Shown: in pieces, positions 27,527 to 35,523 of the stretch
Numbering within the stretch: position 1 is the stretch's first letter
How the letters are laid out: each line of letters opens with the position of its first letter
NCBI GenBank assembly: GCA_018780645.1
Contig: JADMJJ010000006.1
Span: 28,909-92,908 of the forward strand
From: Burkholderiaceae bacterium
Lineage (GTDB): Bacteria; Pseudomonadota; Gammaproteobacteria; Burkholderiales; Burkholderiaceae_C
DNA length: 64,000 nucleotides
Direction: 5' to 3'
The notes under the pieces: model-generated
What the model was told of the DNA's origin: nothing
Seen by the model: only the letters and a program-made list of their open reading frames with translations
Databases searched by the model: none
Translations under genes and position numbers: made by a program

Positions 27527-28147
27527 GTGAACAGGCGTCTGGCGCTGGCCCTGTTGCTGGCGACCCCAGCACTCGCTCGCGCGCAGGCCCTCGTCAGCAA
27601 TGCCGAGGGCTTGCGCCTTTCCTCCCAGGGCCAGCAGCTGATCTTGAGCGGAGTTGATGGCACCGAGCTGCGCCGCTGGCCGGTGGCCGATGTGCGCGGC
27701 CGCCGCACCACCGTGCAGGCGCTACGAGACGCCAGCGCGCGGCGCAGCTTCATCGTCGTGCTCAGCGGCCTGGCCGAACTCTGGGAGATTGCCTACGACC
27801 CCTCCGCCGCACCGGTCTACGAGGGCCTGGTGCATGACTACCGCATGGGCGAGGGCATTGCCAGCCCGGGCTATCTGACGCCACGGCGCATGCCGCTGGA
27901 TGCGCCCATCGGCGCCATCTTCTTCGATCCCCGCATGCCCTGGCTGCTGGCCGAGCAGGGCGGGCAGCTGGTGGTGCTGCATCTCGATGTGCGGCGCCGC
28001 ATCGCCAGCCTGGGGGCGGCCGATATCGGCAGCGCCAGGCTGCTGCAGCGTGAGGGGCAATGGCTGCTGAGCCTGGATCGCGGCGAGGGCCAGGTCTTGT
28101 TCGATACCCGGCGCTGGCAGCCGGTGCAGGCCGTGTCCGCCTACTGA
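27527..28147 (+). CDS. NirF/d1-like half-length beta-propeller protein
   Basis: This 206-residue protein starts with a signal peptide (MNRRLALALLLATPALARA). It then has about three to four propeller-type strand groups, including AELWEIAYDPSAAPVYEGLVHDYRMGEGI and GQLVVLHLDVRRRIASL, which resemble segments of NirF and of the NirN/NirS d1 propeller. NirF is normally near 390 residues and acts in haem d1 synthesis, so this is about half a NirF. There is no haem motif. The start is a GTG four bases after nirM, so the two are coupled. The NirF likeness is my judgement from motifs, not a search. Confidence 0.6.
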   Translation: MNRRLALALLLATPALARAQALVSNAEGLRLSSQGQQLILSGVDGTELRRWPVADVRGRRTTVQALRDASARRSFIVVLSGLAELWEIAYDPSAAPVYEGLVHDYRMGEGIASPGYLTPRRMPLDAPIGAIFFDPRMPWLLAEQGGQLVVLHLDVRRRIASLGAADIGSARLLQREGQWLLSLDRGEGQVLFDTRRWQPVQAVSAY

Positions 28148-28857
28148 AGCGTGTAGCTGGCCAGGCTTTGCGGGCGCAGGATGCGGATGTCGCGGCGCGA
28201 GATGGCGATCAGGCCCTCGTCCTCCAGCTCGCGCAGCACGCGCGAGAAGTACTCCGGCGTCAACGACAGTCGCGAGGCTATGGTCGCCTTGCTGACCGGC
28301 AGCGACACCGTGTGCGGCAGGCCCGCACCGGGCTGCGGCGGCGCATGCCGGCCCAGCAGGAAGCCGGCCACGCGCTGCACGCCGCTGTGCAGGCAGTAGG
28401 ACTCGACATCGCGCTGCAGGCTCTGGATGCGCTGCGAGGCATGGTCCAGCAGGCGCAGCGCAAAGGCCGGGTCGCGGCTGATCTGCGCCGTGATCGCGGC
28501 CTTGGGCAGGCGCAGCAGCAGAACATCGGTCAGGGCCTGGGCGTTCACCTGATGGGCCTGCTCATGGAACATCAACGTTTCGCCGACACTTTGCCCGGGC
28601 CCCACCAGCTCCATCACCTTCTCGCCGCCGTTGCTGGCCAGCGCAAAGAGCTTGAGCTGACCTGTGACAACGATGTGGAAGCACTCGCTGCCCTGCGGAC
28701 AGACCTGGGGTAGCGGCTCGCCACGCACCAGGCGCAGCAGGGCACAGCCGTCGGCGGCGATGCGCTGCAGGTCGGCCTCGCCCAGACCGCTGAACAGCGG
28801 CTGCAGGGACAGATAGCGTGGCAGATCGAAGCTGGCCGGGTGCTTGCTGACGAACAT
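28141..28857 (-). CDS. Crp/Fnr family regulator, Dnr type (first of two)
   Basis: The 238-residue protein has a cyclic-nucleotide-type sensor fold (about 20-130), a dimer helix, and a C-terminal helix-turn-helix with VSKATIASRLSLTPEYFSRVLRELEDEGLI. Fnr's N-terminal cysteine cluster is lacking, which points to a haem or NO-responsive Dnr/Nnr-type activator. The start has GAGG eight bases upstream; a longer reading adds nine residues. A perfect TTGA-N6-TCAA site lies 80 bases before it, suggesting auto- or cross-regulation. It converges with the NirF-like gene, overlapping its stop by seven bases, and is paralogous to the next regulator. Confidence 0.88.
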   Translation of the reverse strand: MFVSKHPASFDLPRYLSLQPLFSGLGEADLQRIAADGCALLRLVRGEPLPQVCPQGSECFHIVVTGQLKLFALASNGGEKVMELVGPGQSVGETLMFHEQAHQVNAQALTDVLLLRLPKAAITAQISRDPAFALRLLDHASQRIQSLQRDVESYCLHSGVQRVAGFLLGRHAPPQPGAGLPHTVSLPVSKATIASRLSLTPEYFSRVLRELEDEGLIAISRRDIRILRPQSLASYTLQ

Positions 28858-28929
28858 GGATATTACCTCGCTGATGAGCAGCATTGCCTGCTCTGCGGGG
28901 CGATTCTGTTCAGCCTCCCTGCCCGGTTG

Positions 28930-29001: not shown

Positions 29002-29706
29002 TCAGGCCGCAACGGCCGGATAGCAGGCCAGGCGGCGGGCGTCGAGGATGCGGATGTCGCGCCTGTCCACCTCGATCAAGCGGGCCGACTCCAGCTCATG
29101 CAGGACGCGGGAGAAGTACTCGGGCGTCAGGCTCAGGCGCGAGGCCACGGTGGCCTTGCTGACCGGCAGCGAGACGGTGATGATGTCGCCGCTGACACAG
29201 TCCTCGGCCTCATGGTCGCGCAGCAGATAGCCGATCACGCGCTGCACGCCGCTGTGCAGCGCATAGGCCTCGACGTCATGCACCAGGCCGTGCAGGCGGC
29301 GCGAGATGCCGGCCAGCATGCGCAGGGCAAAGCGCGAGTCATGCTCGATCTCCTTGATCACCGCCGCCTTGGCGACGCTGAGCAGCAGGCAGTCGGTCAG
29401 CGCCTGGGCGTTGATGATGTAGGGCTTGCCGGTGAACATCAGCGCCTCGGCAAAGCTGTGGCCGGGGGCGACCAGCTCGATCACCTTCTCCTGGCCCGCG
29501 GGCGAGAGGGCGAACAGCTTGACCTGGCCGGTCACCGTGACATGAAACTCCTCGCAGGGCTGGCCGACATGGAAGATCGACTCGCCGCGCAGAAAGCGCC
29601 GCAGCTGGCAGCCGCCGGCCAGGCGCAGCAGCTCGGGCGGGCTGAGATCGGAGAACAGCGGCAGGTTCGAAAGATAACGCGGCAGATCGAAGGCGCGCAT
29701 GTCCAT
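29002..29706 (-). CDS. Crp/Fnr family regulator, Dnr type (second of two)
   Basis: This 234-residue paralogue shares the layout of its neighbour: FDLPRYLSNLPLFSDL at the N-terminus, the sensor barrel with VTVTGQVKLFALSPAGQEKVIELV, the dimer helix, and the helix-turn-helix VSKATVASRLSLTPEYFSRVLHELESARLI. No Fnr-type cysteine cluster is present. GGAGA sits seven bases before the ATG at 29706; two other in-frame ATGs are close by. A perfect TTGA-N6-TCAA box overlapping the norD stop lies 60 bases upstream. Two close copies suggest division of labour, for example sensing NO versus low oxygen. Confidence 0.88.
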   Translation of the reverse strand: MDMRAFDLPRYLSNLPLFSDLSPPELLRLAGGCQLRRFLRGESIFHVGQPCEEFHVTVTGQVKLFALSPAGQEKVIELVAPGHSFAEALMFTGKPYIINAQALTDCLLLSVAKAAVIKEIEHDSRFALRMLAGISRRLHGLVHDVEAYALHSGVQRVIGYLLRDHEAEDCVSGDIITVSLPVSKATVASRLSLTPEYFSRVLHELESARLIEVDRRDIRILDARRLACYPAVAA

Positions 29707-29758
29707 GGCAGGTCTCCACAAGGCAGCGCATTGTGGTCACCGGGACCTGCGGCCCGGC

Positions 29759-29772
29759 TTGACCTCCGTCAA
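29759..29772. promoter_or_regulatory. Fnr/Dnr-type box upstream of the second Dnr-type gene, overlapping the norD stop
   Basis: TTGA-CCTCCG-TCAA is a full consensus match. Its centre is 59.5 bases before the regulator start, and its right half overlaps the last codons and stop of norD (29769). The overlap places the regulator promoter in the 3' end of the nor operon. Confidence 0.75.
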
Positions 29773-31595
29773 ACGGCGCGCGTCAGCCGGGCATAGACCG
29801 CTGCCAGGCGCAGCGGCAGCTCGGACGGCTGGCGCACATGGGCCCAGCCCTGTTGTCCGAACAGATGGGGCAGGTAGTCATGGGCCTCCTCGTCAATGCT
29901 CAGGCAGAAGGGCAGCAGACCGGCGTCGCGGGCCTGCTGCACGGCATGGCGGGTGTCCTCGATGCCCCAGCGGCCCTCATAGACGTCCAGGTCATTGGGT
30001 TTGCCGTCGGTCAGTATCAGCAGCAGGCGCTGGCGCTCGGGGCGCTCGGCCATGCGGCGTGTGGCCAGGCGTATGGCCGCGCCCATGCGGGTGTAGTAGC
30101 CGGGCTTGATGGCGCCCACGCGGGCCTGCACCCCGGTGTTCCAGGCCTCGTCGAAGCCCTTCAGATGCTGGATGCGCACATGGTTGCGGCGCACCGAGCT
30201 GAAGCCCAGCATCGCATAGGCGTCGCCCAGGCCTTGCAGCGCCTCGCCAAAGACATAGAGGCTGTCGCGTATTACGTCGATCACGCGCGCGTCGTTGCTG
30301 ATGTGCGCGTCGGTGGACAGCGACAGATCGGCCAGCAGCAGGGTGGCCAGGCTGCGCTCCCCGCGCTGTCGACGGGCATAGACGGCCGGATCGCCCCACT
30401 GCGGGCCGGCACCGGCCGAGGTGGCATGGCGCACCCAGGCGTCCAGATCGATGGCCTCGCCGTCGCTGCAGCCGCGCTGCCAGTGCGGTGCGGCGCGCAG
30501 CAGCTCCAGGCCGCGGCGCACGCGGCGCGCCGTGGCACGCAGGCTCGGCGGCGGCACAAAGCCCTGGGCCGGGCAGGCCGCCAGCGTCTGGACGCGGCAA
30601 TGATCGGCCAGCAGCCGTTGCTGCTTCCAGTCCCACTCGGGCAGGGCCTCGCCGGGGCCCAGCGGCCGGTCGTCGGCACTGGCACTGGGCAGATCGAGGT
30701 CGAACTTGACTCGCGAGGCCGAGGCCTTGCCATCGCGGCTCAAGGTCAGCCTGTCCATGTCGTCGGCGGCGGCCTCGGCCTGGCCGTCGTCCTCGTCGTC
30801 GGTGCCGCGGTCCAGCGGCACATGCTCGCTCCAGGTCAGGATGGACTCGACCTTGGACGGCAGCAGCAGCGGCGCGCGGCCCTGCGGCTGGGCCTGGGTG
30901 CGCGTGCGGCGGCGGGTGTTGTTGCCTGACCGGGGTTTGGCCGCGTCGTGGGCCGTGGCGTCGTCGGGCTGGCTGCGGGCGGCAGCGGCGGGCCCATCCG
31001 TCCAGGGCTCCAGCCAGAGCCAGACGGGGGCCAAAAGCGTGCCATCGAGTGTCACGTCGAGTGTTTCACCGCGCAGCAGCGCCTGCAGCTGCCGCTCGGC
31101 CTGCGCCGCTTCCGCGCCCAGGCCGGCCGGGTCGGGGCGCTGCCGCAGATGGGCGGCGAGCAGGCGCTCGTAGCGCGGGCGCAGGCCCGGGCAGCGCTGC
31201 AGCGCACGGGCGCTGGCGGCGAGGTTGGCGCCGGCCCAGCCGAGGCCCGGCTCGAACGAGGCGGCCAGCGCGGCCAGCCACAGATAGAGGTCGCGGTTCA
31301 GGCCGGCGTCATTGAACACATCGATCTGCGGCGGCAGGGCCAGCGTTTCGGCGTCCAGGCGCGGTCGCGCGGCGCGTTGACCGGAGCCGGCCAGGCGCTG
31401 TAACCAGCCGCGTGGCCCGGCAATGCGCTCCTGGCTGGCCGGCACTATGCGCACCGCGCTGGCGCCGCCGGCGGCGCGGTAGAGCAGGGCGGCGGCGCGC
31501 TGCACCTCGGGCAGGCTCACGGCCTGGCCCGGAAAGCCGCTCTGCGCGGCCCGGTTGATGAAGCGGTGCCACCGCTCGCCGACCCACTCTTCCAT
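29769..31595 (-). CDS. norD: NorD, nitric oxide reductase activation protein (VWA domain)
   Basis: NorD works with the AAA+ protein NorQ to activate the NorCB reductase, probably by metal insertion. The 608-residue protein has an acidic, low-complexity middle (about 235-290) and a C-terminal von Willebrand A domain (about 400-600) with the MIDAS motif DLSLST in TLLLADLSLSTDAHI and the later RRLLLILTDGKPND-type segment (QRLLLILTDGKPNDLD). MEEWVGERW is chosen as the start because the bases just upstream belong to the repeat shared with the preceding gene. A 408-base spacer separates it from that gene. Confidence 0.92.
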   Translation of the reverse strand: MEEWVGERWHRFINRAAQSGFPGQAVSLPEVQRAAALLYRAAGGASAVRIVPASQERIAGPRGWLQRLAGSGQRAARPRLDAETLALPPQIDVFNDAGLNRDLYLWLAALAASFEPGLGWAGANLAASARALQRCPGLRPRYERLLAAHLRQRPDPAGLGAEAAQAERQLQALLRGETLDVTLDGTLLAPVWLWLEPWTDGPAAAARSQPDDATAHDAAKPRSGNNTRRRTRTQAQPQGRAPLLLPSKVESILTWSEHVPLDRGTDDEDDGQAEAAADDMDRLTLSRDGKASASRVKFDLDLPSASADDRPLGPGEALPEWDWKQQRLLADHCRVQTLAACPAQGFVPPPSLRATARRVRRGLELLRAAPHWQRGCSDGEAIDLDAWVRHATSAGAGPQWGDPAVYARRQRGERSLATLLLADLSLSTDAHISNDARVIDVIRDSLYVFGEALQGLGDAYAMLGFSSVRRNHVRIQHLKGFDEAWNTGVQARVGAIKPGYYTRMGAAIRLATRRMAERPERQRLLLILTDGKPNDLDVYEGRWGIEDTRHAVQQARDAGLLPFCLSIDEEAHDYLPHLFGQQGWAHVRQPSELPLRLAAVYARLTRAV

Positions 31596-31669
31596 CTCAG
31601 CTACTCCACCGCGCTTGGCGCCACACACGACACATTTGAAATGCCAGGCGGCAGGGACGAGGGCGCGCC

Positions 31670-31741
31670 GGCCGCTGCGGGCTGAAGCCTTGTCCGTCCC
31701 TGAACGGGTCGAACCCCGGCTTCTTTATGCCCGCTGCGACC
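31670..31741 (+). repeat. Hairpin unit A', inverted copy inside repeat A
   Basis: The arms GGCCGCTGCGGGC (31670-31682) and GCCCGCTGCGACC (31729-31741) pair at 11 of 13 positions. The unit is close to the reverse complement of 31853-31924 and shares CTTCTTTATGCCCGC with it. It therefore lies opposite to the other two units. Confidence 0.75.
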
Positions 31742-31852
31742 GGCACGCCCTCGCCCCTGCTGCAACGTGTGTGCAGGCTCGCCAATCCGCAAGGCACGCG
31801 CATGAGGCAGAGATGGCGGCCACCAGCGTATCCGCAGATGGGGTGGGGGGCC

Positions 31853-31924
31853 GGCCACGGCGGGCATAAAGAAGCTGGAGGTTGGTCCGTTCAGGGCCGG
31901 CCCAAGCTTCAGCCCGTCGTGGCC
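31853..31924 (-). repeat. Hairpin unit A inside repeat A
   Basis: The arms GGCCACGGCGGGC (31853-31865) and GCCCGTCGTGGCC (31912-31924) form a 13-bp stem with one G-T pair. Nested inner stems GAAGCT/AGCTTC and GGGCC/GGCCC lie inside. Compared with unit B, a T-A pair is replaced by G-C, so pairing is kept. Confidence 0.8.
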
Positions 31925-32003
31925 GGCCTCCCGCCCCCTCTGCCGCGCCAACAACGCGAGGTGGCCAGCACCGACACCCAGTAGCGATCCGATCAGTTTC
32001 ACT

Positions 32004-32981
32004 TCAGCGTCCGTTGTCGGCGCGGCGCTGGCGCAGCGTCTCGCGCAACGCGTCGACGCCCACCGTCCACTCGAGATTGGGGTTCGCGCCGCGCGGAGCA
32101 TGCGAGGTCTCGCACTCGGTCACGCACTGGCCGCACTGCACGCAGGAGAACATCAGGCGCTTGACATTGCGCGGCTTGAGCCGCATCGGGCAGGCGGTAT
32201 CGCAGGCCGCGCCCTCGGGGGATTGGGCTGTGCTGCAGTCGCGGCAGTCGCGGGCGCGTTCGCGGGCGAAGGCCACCACCAGGGCGCGCGGATTGGCCAT
32301 CCAGGCCAGGCTCTGGAACAGGCCCACGGCGCAGCCGAAGCGGCAGAACAGATGACGGGCCAGCAGCAGCTCGGCGCTGAACACGGCGCCAGCTATGACG
32401 ATGAAGCGAGCCTGGTTGGGCGTCAAGGTGCCGCTGAAAAGGTTGCCCCAGATCAGTGCCGGCGGCAGCAGATAGGTCAGCAGGGTGATGGACCACAGAA
32501 AGCCGAAGAACAGGCAGCTGATCAGGAACAGGGGCCACCAGCGGCGCTGCGGGCTGCGGCCGGTCTTGGCCGTGGCCTGCCTGTCCCACAGGCTGAACCT
32601 GCCGGTGGCGCGGTGCAGCAGGTCGTTGAGCGTCTCGACCAGCGAGAAGTGCGGGCACAGCCAGCCGCAGTAGATGCGGCCATGGCGCCAGGCCACCGTC
32701 ATGAAGCCGGCCACGAACAGCAACGCTGGCAGGATGCCGCGCAACAGTATCGAGGCCGCCGCCTCATTGGCACTGATCTCGCCGCGCACAAAGGCATCTA
32801 TGCCAAGCGACCAGCGAAAGCCCAGGAACCAGAGCTGGGTCTCGCCCAGGTCGAAGCGCAGCAGGTTCAGCGCCGGAGCGAGCAGGAACAGCGCGAAAAA
32901 GCCCAGCTGGGTGGCGCGGCGCAGGCGCTGCAGGCGCGCCATGCGGCCCACCTGCGTCGAAGGCGGCGCGGCCAACGCCAT
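32004..32981 (-). CDS. NapH/CcoG-like membrane polyferredoxin in the nor operon
   Basis: The 325-residue membrane protein has about four or five hydrophobic helices and a CxxxCP motif (YCGWLCPHFSLVE), as in NapH, NosR and CcoG. Ferredoxin-type cysteines follow: RDCRDCSTAQ ... CDTACP and then SCVQCGQCVTEC, enough for one complete and one partial [4Fe-4S] site. Such proteins move electrons across the inner membrane or help copper-site assembly. Its place between norQ and norD suggests a role in NO reductase maturation or electron supply. The start MALAAPPST follows a leader that is nearly the same as that of norD. Confidence 0.82.
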   Translation of the reverse strand: MALAAPPSTQVGRMARLQRLRRATQLGFFALFLLAPALNLLRFDLGETQLWFLGFRWSLGIDAFVRGEISANEAAASILLRGILPALLFVAGFMTVAWRHGRIYCGWLCPHFSLVETLNDLLHRATGRFSLWDRQATAKTGRSPQRRWWPLFLISCLFFGFLWSITLLTYLLPPALIWGNLFSGTLTPNQARFIVIAGAVFSAELLLARHLFCRFGCAVGLFQSLAWMANPRALVVAFARERARDCRDCSTAQSPEGAACDTACPMRLKPRNVKRLMFSCVQCGQCVTECETSHAPRGANPNLEWTVGVDALRETLRQRRADNGR

Positions 32982-33224
32982 CTCGGCTGCTCCCCGGCGC
33001 TTGGCGCTACACATGACGCGTTCGAATTTTGAGGCGGCAGGGACGAGGGCGCGCCAATCCGCAAAGCACGCGGGGGCGGCGGCCACCATCGCATCCGCAG
33101 AGGGGGTGGGGGGTCGGCCACTGCGGGCATAAAGAAGCTGGAGGTCGGGCCGAAGGGACCGGCCCAAGCTTCAGCCCGCAGTGGCCGGCCCCCCGCCCCC
33201 TCTGCCGCACCAACAAAGCGAGGC
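32979..33224. repeat. Nor-operon intergenic repeat, short copy (B)
   Basis: This copy fills most of the 284-base gap between norQ and the polyferredoxin gene. It aligns with repeat A minus the 111-base insert. Both copies abut the start codon of the gene downstream, so the two genes share a 5' leader. Confidence 0.85.
33116..33186 (-). repeat. Hairpin unit B inside repeat B
   Basis: The arms GGCCACTGCGGGC (33116-33128) and GCCCGCAGTGGCC (33174-33186) are perfectly complementary over 13 bp. Inside are GAAGCT/AGCTTC and GGGCC/GGCCC stems around a short loop. On the nor transcript this would be a very stable stem. Confidence 0.85.
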
Positions 33225-33265
33225 GCCATGGACCGGCAAGTGGCGGCGAATCGATCCCGTGCACT

Positions 33266-35523
<2,258 letters not shown>

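Follow-up and report, generated by a model that had tools for sequence, protein, structure and literature searches.

The window analyzed here is a stretch of 64,000 nucleotides from a Burkholderiaceae bacterium. Its minus strand carries a nor operon in which two intergenic spacers are filled by related, hairpin-rich repeats. The gene order, established from open reading frames (ORFs) and Pfam matches, is norC, norB, norQ, a polyferredoxin-like gene, and norD (Table 1). The spacers upstream of the polyferredoxin-like gene (copy B) and of norD (copy A) are similar, as an initial annotation made from the sequence had recognized, and both repeats do extend to the start codon of the gene downstream. 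Three repeated segments, 114, 78, and 75 nt long, are 79, 83, and 91% identical. They also begin at the stop codon of the gene upstream and are traversed by an open frame, two properties that the annotation overlooked. The compensatory G-C/T-A change reported in the stem was borne out (GCCACGACGGGC/GCCCGCCGTGGC vs. GCCACTGCGGGC/GCCCGCAGTGGC, minus strand). The observation was real in part but required correction. RNA folding predicts strong hairpins in both spacers, but these measure ~110 nt rather than the ~72 nt claimed. The neighboring G-U pair occurs on the plus strand only and is an A-C mismatch in the operon mRNA, which corresponds to the minus strand. Finally, the "third inverted copy" thought to be inserted in the longer spacer is the ordinary second (right) hairpin of a full-length element, which resembles the left hairpin in reverse.

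Table 1. Features of the norQ-norD region (positions in the window)
Feature	Position	Strand	Basis and remarks
norQ	33266..34090	-	ORF; Pfam AAA_5 and CbbQ/NirQ/NorQ C-terminal; stop TGA 33268-33266 is the start of copy B
Element copy B, short form (one hairpin and remnant of second)	32979..33269	-	CTGAAGTG at norQ stop to CCGAGATG at polyferredoxin start
Copy B left hairpin	33097..33205	-	RNA fold -93.4 kcal/mol, z -10.9
Copy B open frame, GTG to TAG, 85 codons	33007..33264	-	Sequence; same frame as listed ORF 33007..33327
Polyferredoxin-like gene (4Fe-4S)	32004..32981	-	ORF; Pfam Fer4_5; ATG 32981-32979, stop TGA 32006-32004
Element copy A, full form	31593..32007	-	CTGAAGTG (32007-32000) at polyferredoxin stop to CTGAGATG (31600-31593) at norD start
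Copy A left hairpin	31834..31943	-	RNA fold -75.1 kcal/mol, z -6.5
Copy A right hairpin	31651..31760	-	RNA fold -96 kcal/mol, z -11.9; 64 distinct relatives
Copy A open frame, GTG (32002-32000) to TAG (31603-31601), 133 codons	31601..32002	-	Row L001; stop 5 nt before norD ATG
Conserved right tail GGTGGAGTAGCTGAGATG	31593..31610	-	Sequence; Shine-Dalgarno-like GGAG and norD start codon
norD (VWA domain)	29769..31595	-	ORF; Pfam VWA; ATG 31595-31593

Comparison of the copies recovered from this and other genomes defined the anatomy of the element. A full copy consists of CTGARRTG, AAACKGATCGACT, the left hairpin, a linker, the right hairpin, and CGCGGTGGAGYAACTGARATG, with a consensus of 404 nt counted from the left start codon; this full form of ~400 nt carries two hairpins of ~110 nt. 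From the left start codon to the right ATG, 39 of 41 full copies span 335-442 nt, and the other two 287 and 303 nt. Copy A in the window is full, and copy B and the copy at locus L018 lack most of the right hairpin. CTGARATG-like octamers occupy both ends of the element, and the tandem copies L003/L027 have one octamer in common. The exact tail pattern GCGGTGGAGNAACTGARATG was found in 7 of 200 genomes of the family, with no match for the reversed control; there was none in the element's own genome, because the tails vary there. Without any hairpin element, the exact tail GCGGTGGAGCAACTGAGATG occurs on its own at one locus (L109, G072:C58), flanked by two genes that by eye appear to be flagellar. 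A sequence of the type CCCTGAGC(G/T)TGTCGAAG, which we take to be a common proteobacterial repeat, adjoins elements in the left flank of L013 and at L110.

A dispersed repeat between stop and start codons

With the shorter spacer (copy B) as the query, 32 places scoring at least 109 bits were found in its own genome, both window copies included; several lie at contig ends, so the actual number may exceed 32. Local duplication as the origin of the two spacers is ruled out by these 32 places. A search of 60 genomes with copy A gave strong matches only in its own and two other genomes of the same genus, and single weak matches in three others. The initial annotation had proposed a covariance model as the means of checking its claim, and a model of the right hairpin gave 89, 90, and 14 matches in genomes G000, G002, and G001, counting both hairpins and both strands, with at most 93 candidates scored per genome. 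With E values up to 1e-5 allowed, the other 37 genomes had no match, and among these 40 genomes the 400-nt form was found in one genus only. A scan of genome contigs for the hairpin pattern returned 45 stretches, 34 of them from Roseateles toxinivorans DSM 16998. Of the other 11, which stand as pattern matches only, one came from R. oligotrophus and the remaining 10 from unrelated organisms. All 31 Rfam matches at E up to 1 scored below the gathering thresholds and belonged mostly to microRNA precursor families, and no published description of the element was found among the open-licence papers searched.

The copies occupy a characteristic position. Upstream sequence of 700 nt or more was available for 49 left ends. 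Of these, 44 have a same-strand ORF of at least 100 codons whose stop lies within -25 to +5 nt, as do 225 of 4,000 random positions, and in 29 of the 49 the left-end TGA is itself that stop codon. At the right end, the ATG opens a frame of at least 100 codons in 39 of 47 cases, compared with 1,291 of 3,965 random ATGs. The copies are numerous and sit at gene junctions, contrary to the outcome that the annotation had named as adverse to its proposal (a lack of further copies or covariation, or random placement). Any control that they exert on the nor transcript is not nor-specific: many different genes lie downstream of them, and a nor-specific regulator was rejected on this ground.

Four junctions that hold an element are empty in relatives: norQ/polyferredoxin, polyferredoxin/norD, and the L016 and L023 sites. 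In G009 (L120), norQ and the polyferredoxin gene apparently overlap (GATGCCTGAGATCGTGCTGG) with no element between them. The polyferredoxin/norD junction lacks an element in both G009 (L120; TGATCGATCATGGAAGAG) and G062 (L121; CTGAGATGGAAGAG). The L023 site is empty in G002 (L165). The L016 site is empty in both G001 (L136) and G002 (L135), so the L016 copy looks to have been inserted in this lineage. Two further sites gave less simple alignments: at L013 the downstream side matches G001 and G009 and the left flank aligns poorly, and the L029 site in G002 is not empty, with ~330 nt, including a right hairpin, between the flanks. Together, the dispersion of the copies and the empty junctions back the annotation's guess of a mobile palindromic element.

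The open frame, the hairpins, and their explanation

Read from the left-end RTG, the frame stays open to the end in 36 of the 41 distinct full copies, against a mean of 7.0 and a maximum of 17 in 10,000 simulations with dinucleotide shuffles. Of the other frames, one is open in none of the 41 and the other in 8. Relative to the next ATG, the frame stops at -1 in 15 copies, overlaps it (+4) in 12, and stops at -5 in 5, making 32 of 41. The rows from the element's own genome alone (L001-L030) gave a similar picture, with 17 of 17 open and 15 of 17 ending at -5 to +4. When substitutions were relocated and the insertions and deletions of each copy were kept, 14.1 open copies were expected, and none of 20,000 simulations reached 36. 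Of the 36 open copies, 32 also have a stop close to the ATG in the very frame that arrives at the right end, compared with a shuffled mean of 24.7 (P = 0.00035).

These results bear on the idea that the element is a plain hairpin parasite, akin to miniature inverted-repeat transposable elements or repetitive extragenic palindromes (REPs), that prefers CTGARATG and survives only at junctions, its open frame being a leftover of the source copy or of base composition. The octamers at both ends, and the octamer shared by the tandem copies L003/L027, speak in its favor. Against it stand the 36 open copies seen where relocated substitutions predict 14.1, the fit between the arriving frame and the stop, and the 32 stops at -1, +4, or -5. 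We regard it as improbable. A genuine small protein is far less credible still. The window does contain frames of 133 and 85 codons, but neither has a Pfam match. In 13 hand-picked pairs, for which orthology was not checked pair by pair, the peptide is unconserved: the pooled ratio of nonsynonymous to synonymous differences per site (pN/pS) was 0.89, and the three codon positions differ almost equally (115/106/100). Moreover, copies differ in the frame that runs through the right hairpin, all three being used (in 25, 11, and 4 copies). On these grounds the small-protein explanation was rejected.

Covariation is evident in the right hairpin. In the alignment of 64 distinct right hairpins drawn from the fetched loci, 98.2% of cells are paired and 9 of 41 pairs have changed on both sides; none of 500 shuffles scored as high on any of five measures. 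Variants among 65 sequences include G-U in 25 pairs vs. A-C in 5 (P = 0.0003). The unpaired flanks are free of a C-to-T vs. G-to-A mutational bias (C-to-T changes occupy 37 of 51 columns and G-to-A changes 44 of 62). The G-U excess therefore suggests that the sense strand exists in single-stranded form, as RNA or as DNA. For the left hairpin, in a filtered set of 49 copies that favors well-kept stems, G-U was found in 4 pairs and A-C in 10, with double changes in 3 of 32 pairs. The annotation's "selected RNA structure" is thus supported for the right hairpin, through its covariation and G-U excess, but not for the left hairpin it had described, where covariation is slight. Each of its two guesses, selected RNA and mobile palindrome, was right in part.

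The same data could be read as evidence for a regulatory or processing RNA, with the hairpins kept for mRNA stability, processing, or translation and the open frame incidental. Such an RNA would account for the near-complete pairing, the nine doubly changed pairs, the failure of any of the 500 shuffles to match them, and the excess of G-U in a hairpin whose flanks are unbiased. It sits poorly with the many different genes that follow the copies, with the lack of a G-U bias in the left hairpin (4 vs. 10), and with window copy B, which lacks most of the right hairpin, and it leaves the openness of the frame and its match to the stop unexplained. We consider this explanation unlikely.

The explanation we prefer, at a probability of roughly two in three, is that both spacers hold a ~400-nt element, dispersed and likely mobile, that mostly runs from stop codon to start codon and whose frame, open in most full copies, would act as a decoy cistron, preserving translation of the operon. 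The element would have arrived by transposition at gene junctions, and ribosomes would translate its open frame as the decoy. A decoy stop close to the next start would let the same or a new ribosome initiate there, helped by the element's own GGAG, and continuous translation across the element would avoid Rho-dependent polarity. By such a ribosome hand-over, the gene downstream would stay functional. The hairpins may be recognition structures for a putative transposase, or may serve in mRNA stabilization or processing. Transposition, translation, and coupling are all proposed here from sequence.

Several observations weigh against this proposal. Copy B is a poor case, its frame stopping 25 nt upstream of the polyferredoxin ATG with no tight coupling. 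In five of the 41 full copies the frame closes early, in one case 18 nt short of the right end. Exceptions to the placement rule occur at five left ends (L015, L030, L044, L046, and L093) and at eight right ends (L017, L024, L030, L032, L039, L058, L080, and L095), of which L017 is a match on the strand opposite its element. A cluster of stops closing all three frames was looked for and is absent (0 of 41 copies). Lengths of insertions and deletions relative to the consensus have no preference for multiples of three (remainders of 0, 1, and 2 in 42, 68, and 35 cases), a pattern compatible with switches of frame that argues against peptide conservation. The 41 copies were chosen for two recognizable ends, whereas 64 distinct right hairpins had been collected, and this choice favors intact copies; they also include orthologues, a relatedness that the P values disregard, and openness may in part be inherited from source copies. 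With regard to movement, the left-end and right-end octamers often disagree both with one another and with the letters of the empty junctions, so exact target-site duplication was not established. No autonomous partner element was found in 40 genomes: Y1 transposase domains occur in 31 of them irrespective of the presence of the element, and thus speak neither for nor against a link to REP-associated tyrosine transposases (RAYTs).

Known repeats and related layouts in other genera

Mycobacterial interspersed repetitive units (MIRUs) are short elements. They are described as apparently mobile, inserting at start codons and carrying an internal ORF that is coupled to the gene at that site, probably with very little impact (PMC12548453); the ORF overlaps the start of that gene at a spacing of -4 nt. 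Like MIRUs, the present element is a dispersed repeat at start codons between genes. Its stop overlaps the next start (+4) in 12 of 41 copies, but lies at -1 in 15 and at -5 in 5. It differs further in belonging to another phylum, at ~400 nt in place of a short unit and with two long hairpins. Compared by description rather than by sequence, its mode of action would be MIRU-like in outline. Insertions in operons often silence the genes downstream; if our proposal is true, a repeat that stays readable in the frame it happens to have, and stops at the next start, would be a simple solution, one apparently reached independently of MIRUs. One could then test directly whether translatability itself is selected, as opposed to a peptide or a regulator. 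In addition, hypothetical ORFs in such spacers would probably not be functional proteins, and long structured spacers within operons need not be regulators.

Three other repeat classes were considered. The Beta-proteobacterial repeat element (BRE; PMC3110155) is a GC-rich repeat of ~90 bp in Bordetella, Polaromonas, Delftia, and others that is usually intergenic, sometimes overlaps the end of an ORF by a few bases, and forms tandem arrays. The present element shares the GC richness, the mostly intergenic position with occasional slight overlap of ORF ends, and the tandem arrays, but 39 of 41 full copies span 335-442 nt in place of a ~90-bp unit; this comparison, too, is by description. REPs are palindromes of 20-40 bp, tagged by GTAG or CGTC, that lie mostly downstream of coding regions and are associated with RAYT transposases (PMC3733652). 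Both families comprise numerous dispersed hairpins, often in pairs of opposite orientation and plausibly transcribed; the hairpins described here, however, are ~110 nt long and lie between stop and start codons. The TAACTGA direct repeats found upstream of start codons are tandem heptamers with two or more copies per set (PMC4679880). TAACTGA occurs in the tail of some copies (e.g., L030 and L033), where it is the end of a hairpin element rather than a tandem heptamer.

Layouts of a related kind occur in other genera. At E up to 1e-4, a short unit from G123, used as a hand-typed composite query, matched 129 of 200 family genomes in 102 of 141 genera; among the matches listed, many span only its first ~84 bases. 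Eleven distinct short units had both ends, nine of them from G123. The frame ends near the next start in eight (seven at -1 and one at +4), stops early in two, and continues in frame with the next gene in one. These short units are better BRE candidates than the 400-nt element and may be kin of BRE. A recognizable right tail was present in just 4 of 33 rows from other genera, and part of the remainder is noise from a loose pattern; extension of the placement rule across the wider family is therefore provisional. A bolder version posits a "translation-transparent" class of mobile elements in most genera of the family, with unrelated interiors but a single ordering in common: a stop, a start, an open decoy frame, and again a stop and a start. 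Its members would find their sites via mRNA, a single-stranded sense intermediate with a covarying hairpin inserting at stop/start junctions marked by ribosomes. We consider this version quite unlikely.

Individual loci provide examples of short units. At L107 (G123:C1), three 145-nt units are arranged in tandem, and each frame ends in a TGA separated by one nucleotide from the start codon that follows. In G030 (L127), a unit of ~120 nt and 38 codons, unrelated in sequence, occupies the norQ/polyferredoxin junction between two exact copies of GACTGACATG; it has the same stop-start-ORF-stop-start layout and ends in TGA-C-ATG, the frame having been read by eye. Rows L169-L198, from many genera, contain a widespread unit of ~90 nt (RTGAMCCACCCCCGAAGCGCCTTCGGCGC...TTGA), which in some rows begins directly after TGAR and often has a frame of ~30 codons; it could be the BRE of the literature. 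In two loci from other families (L130 and L133), the spacers adjoining the polyferredoxin gene of the same operon carry a different repeat-like sequence, CCGCAGAGGCACGGAGGCGCAGAGA, together with a reverse-complement relative. Downstream of norD in the window, two similar ORFs on the minus strand (28141-28884 and 29002-29721) look like CRP/FNR-type regulators, a designation made by eye from their translations.

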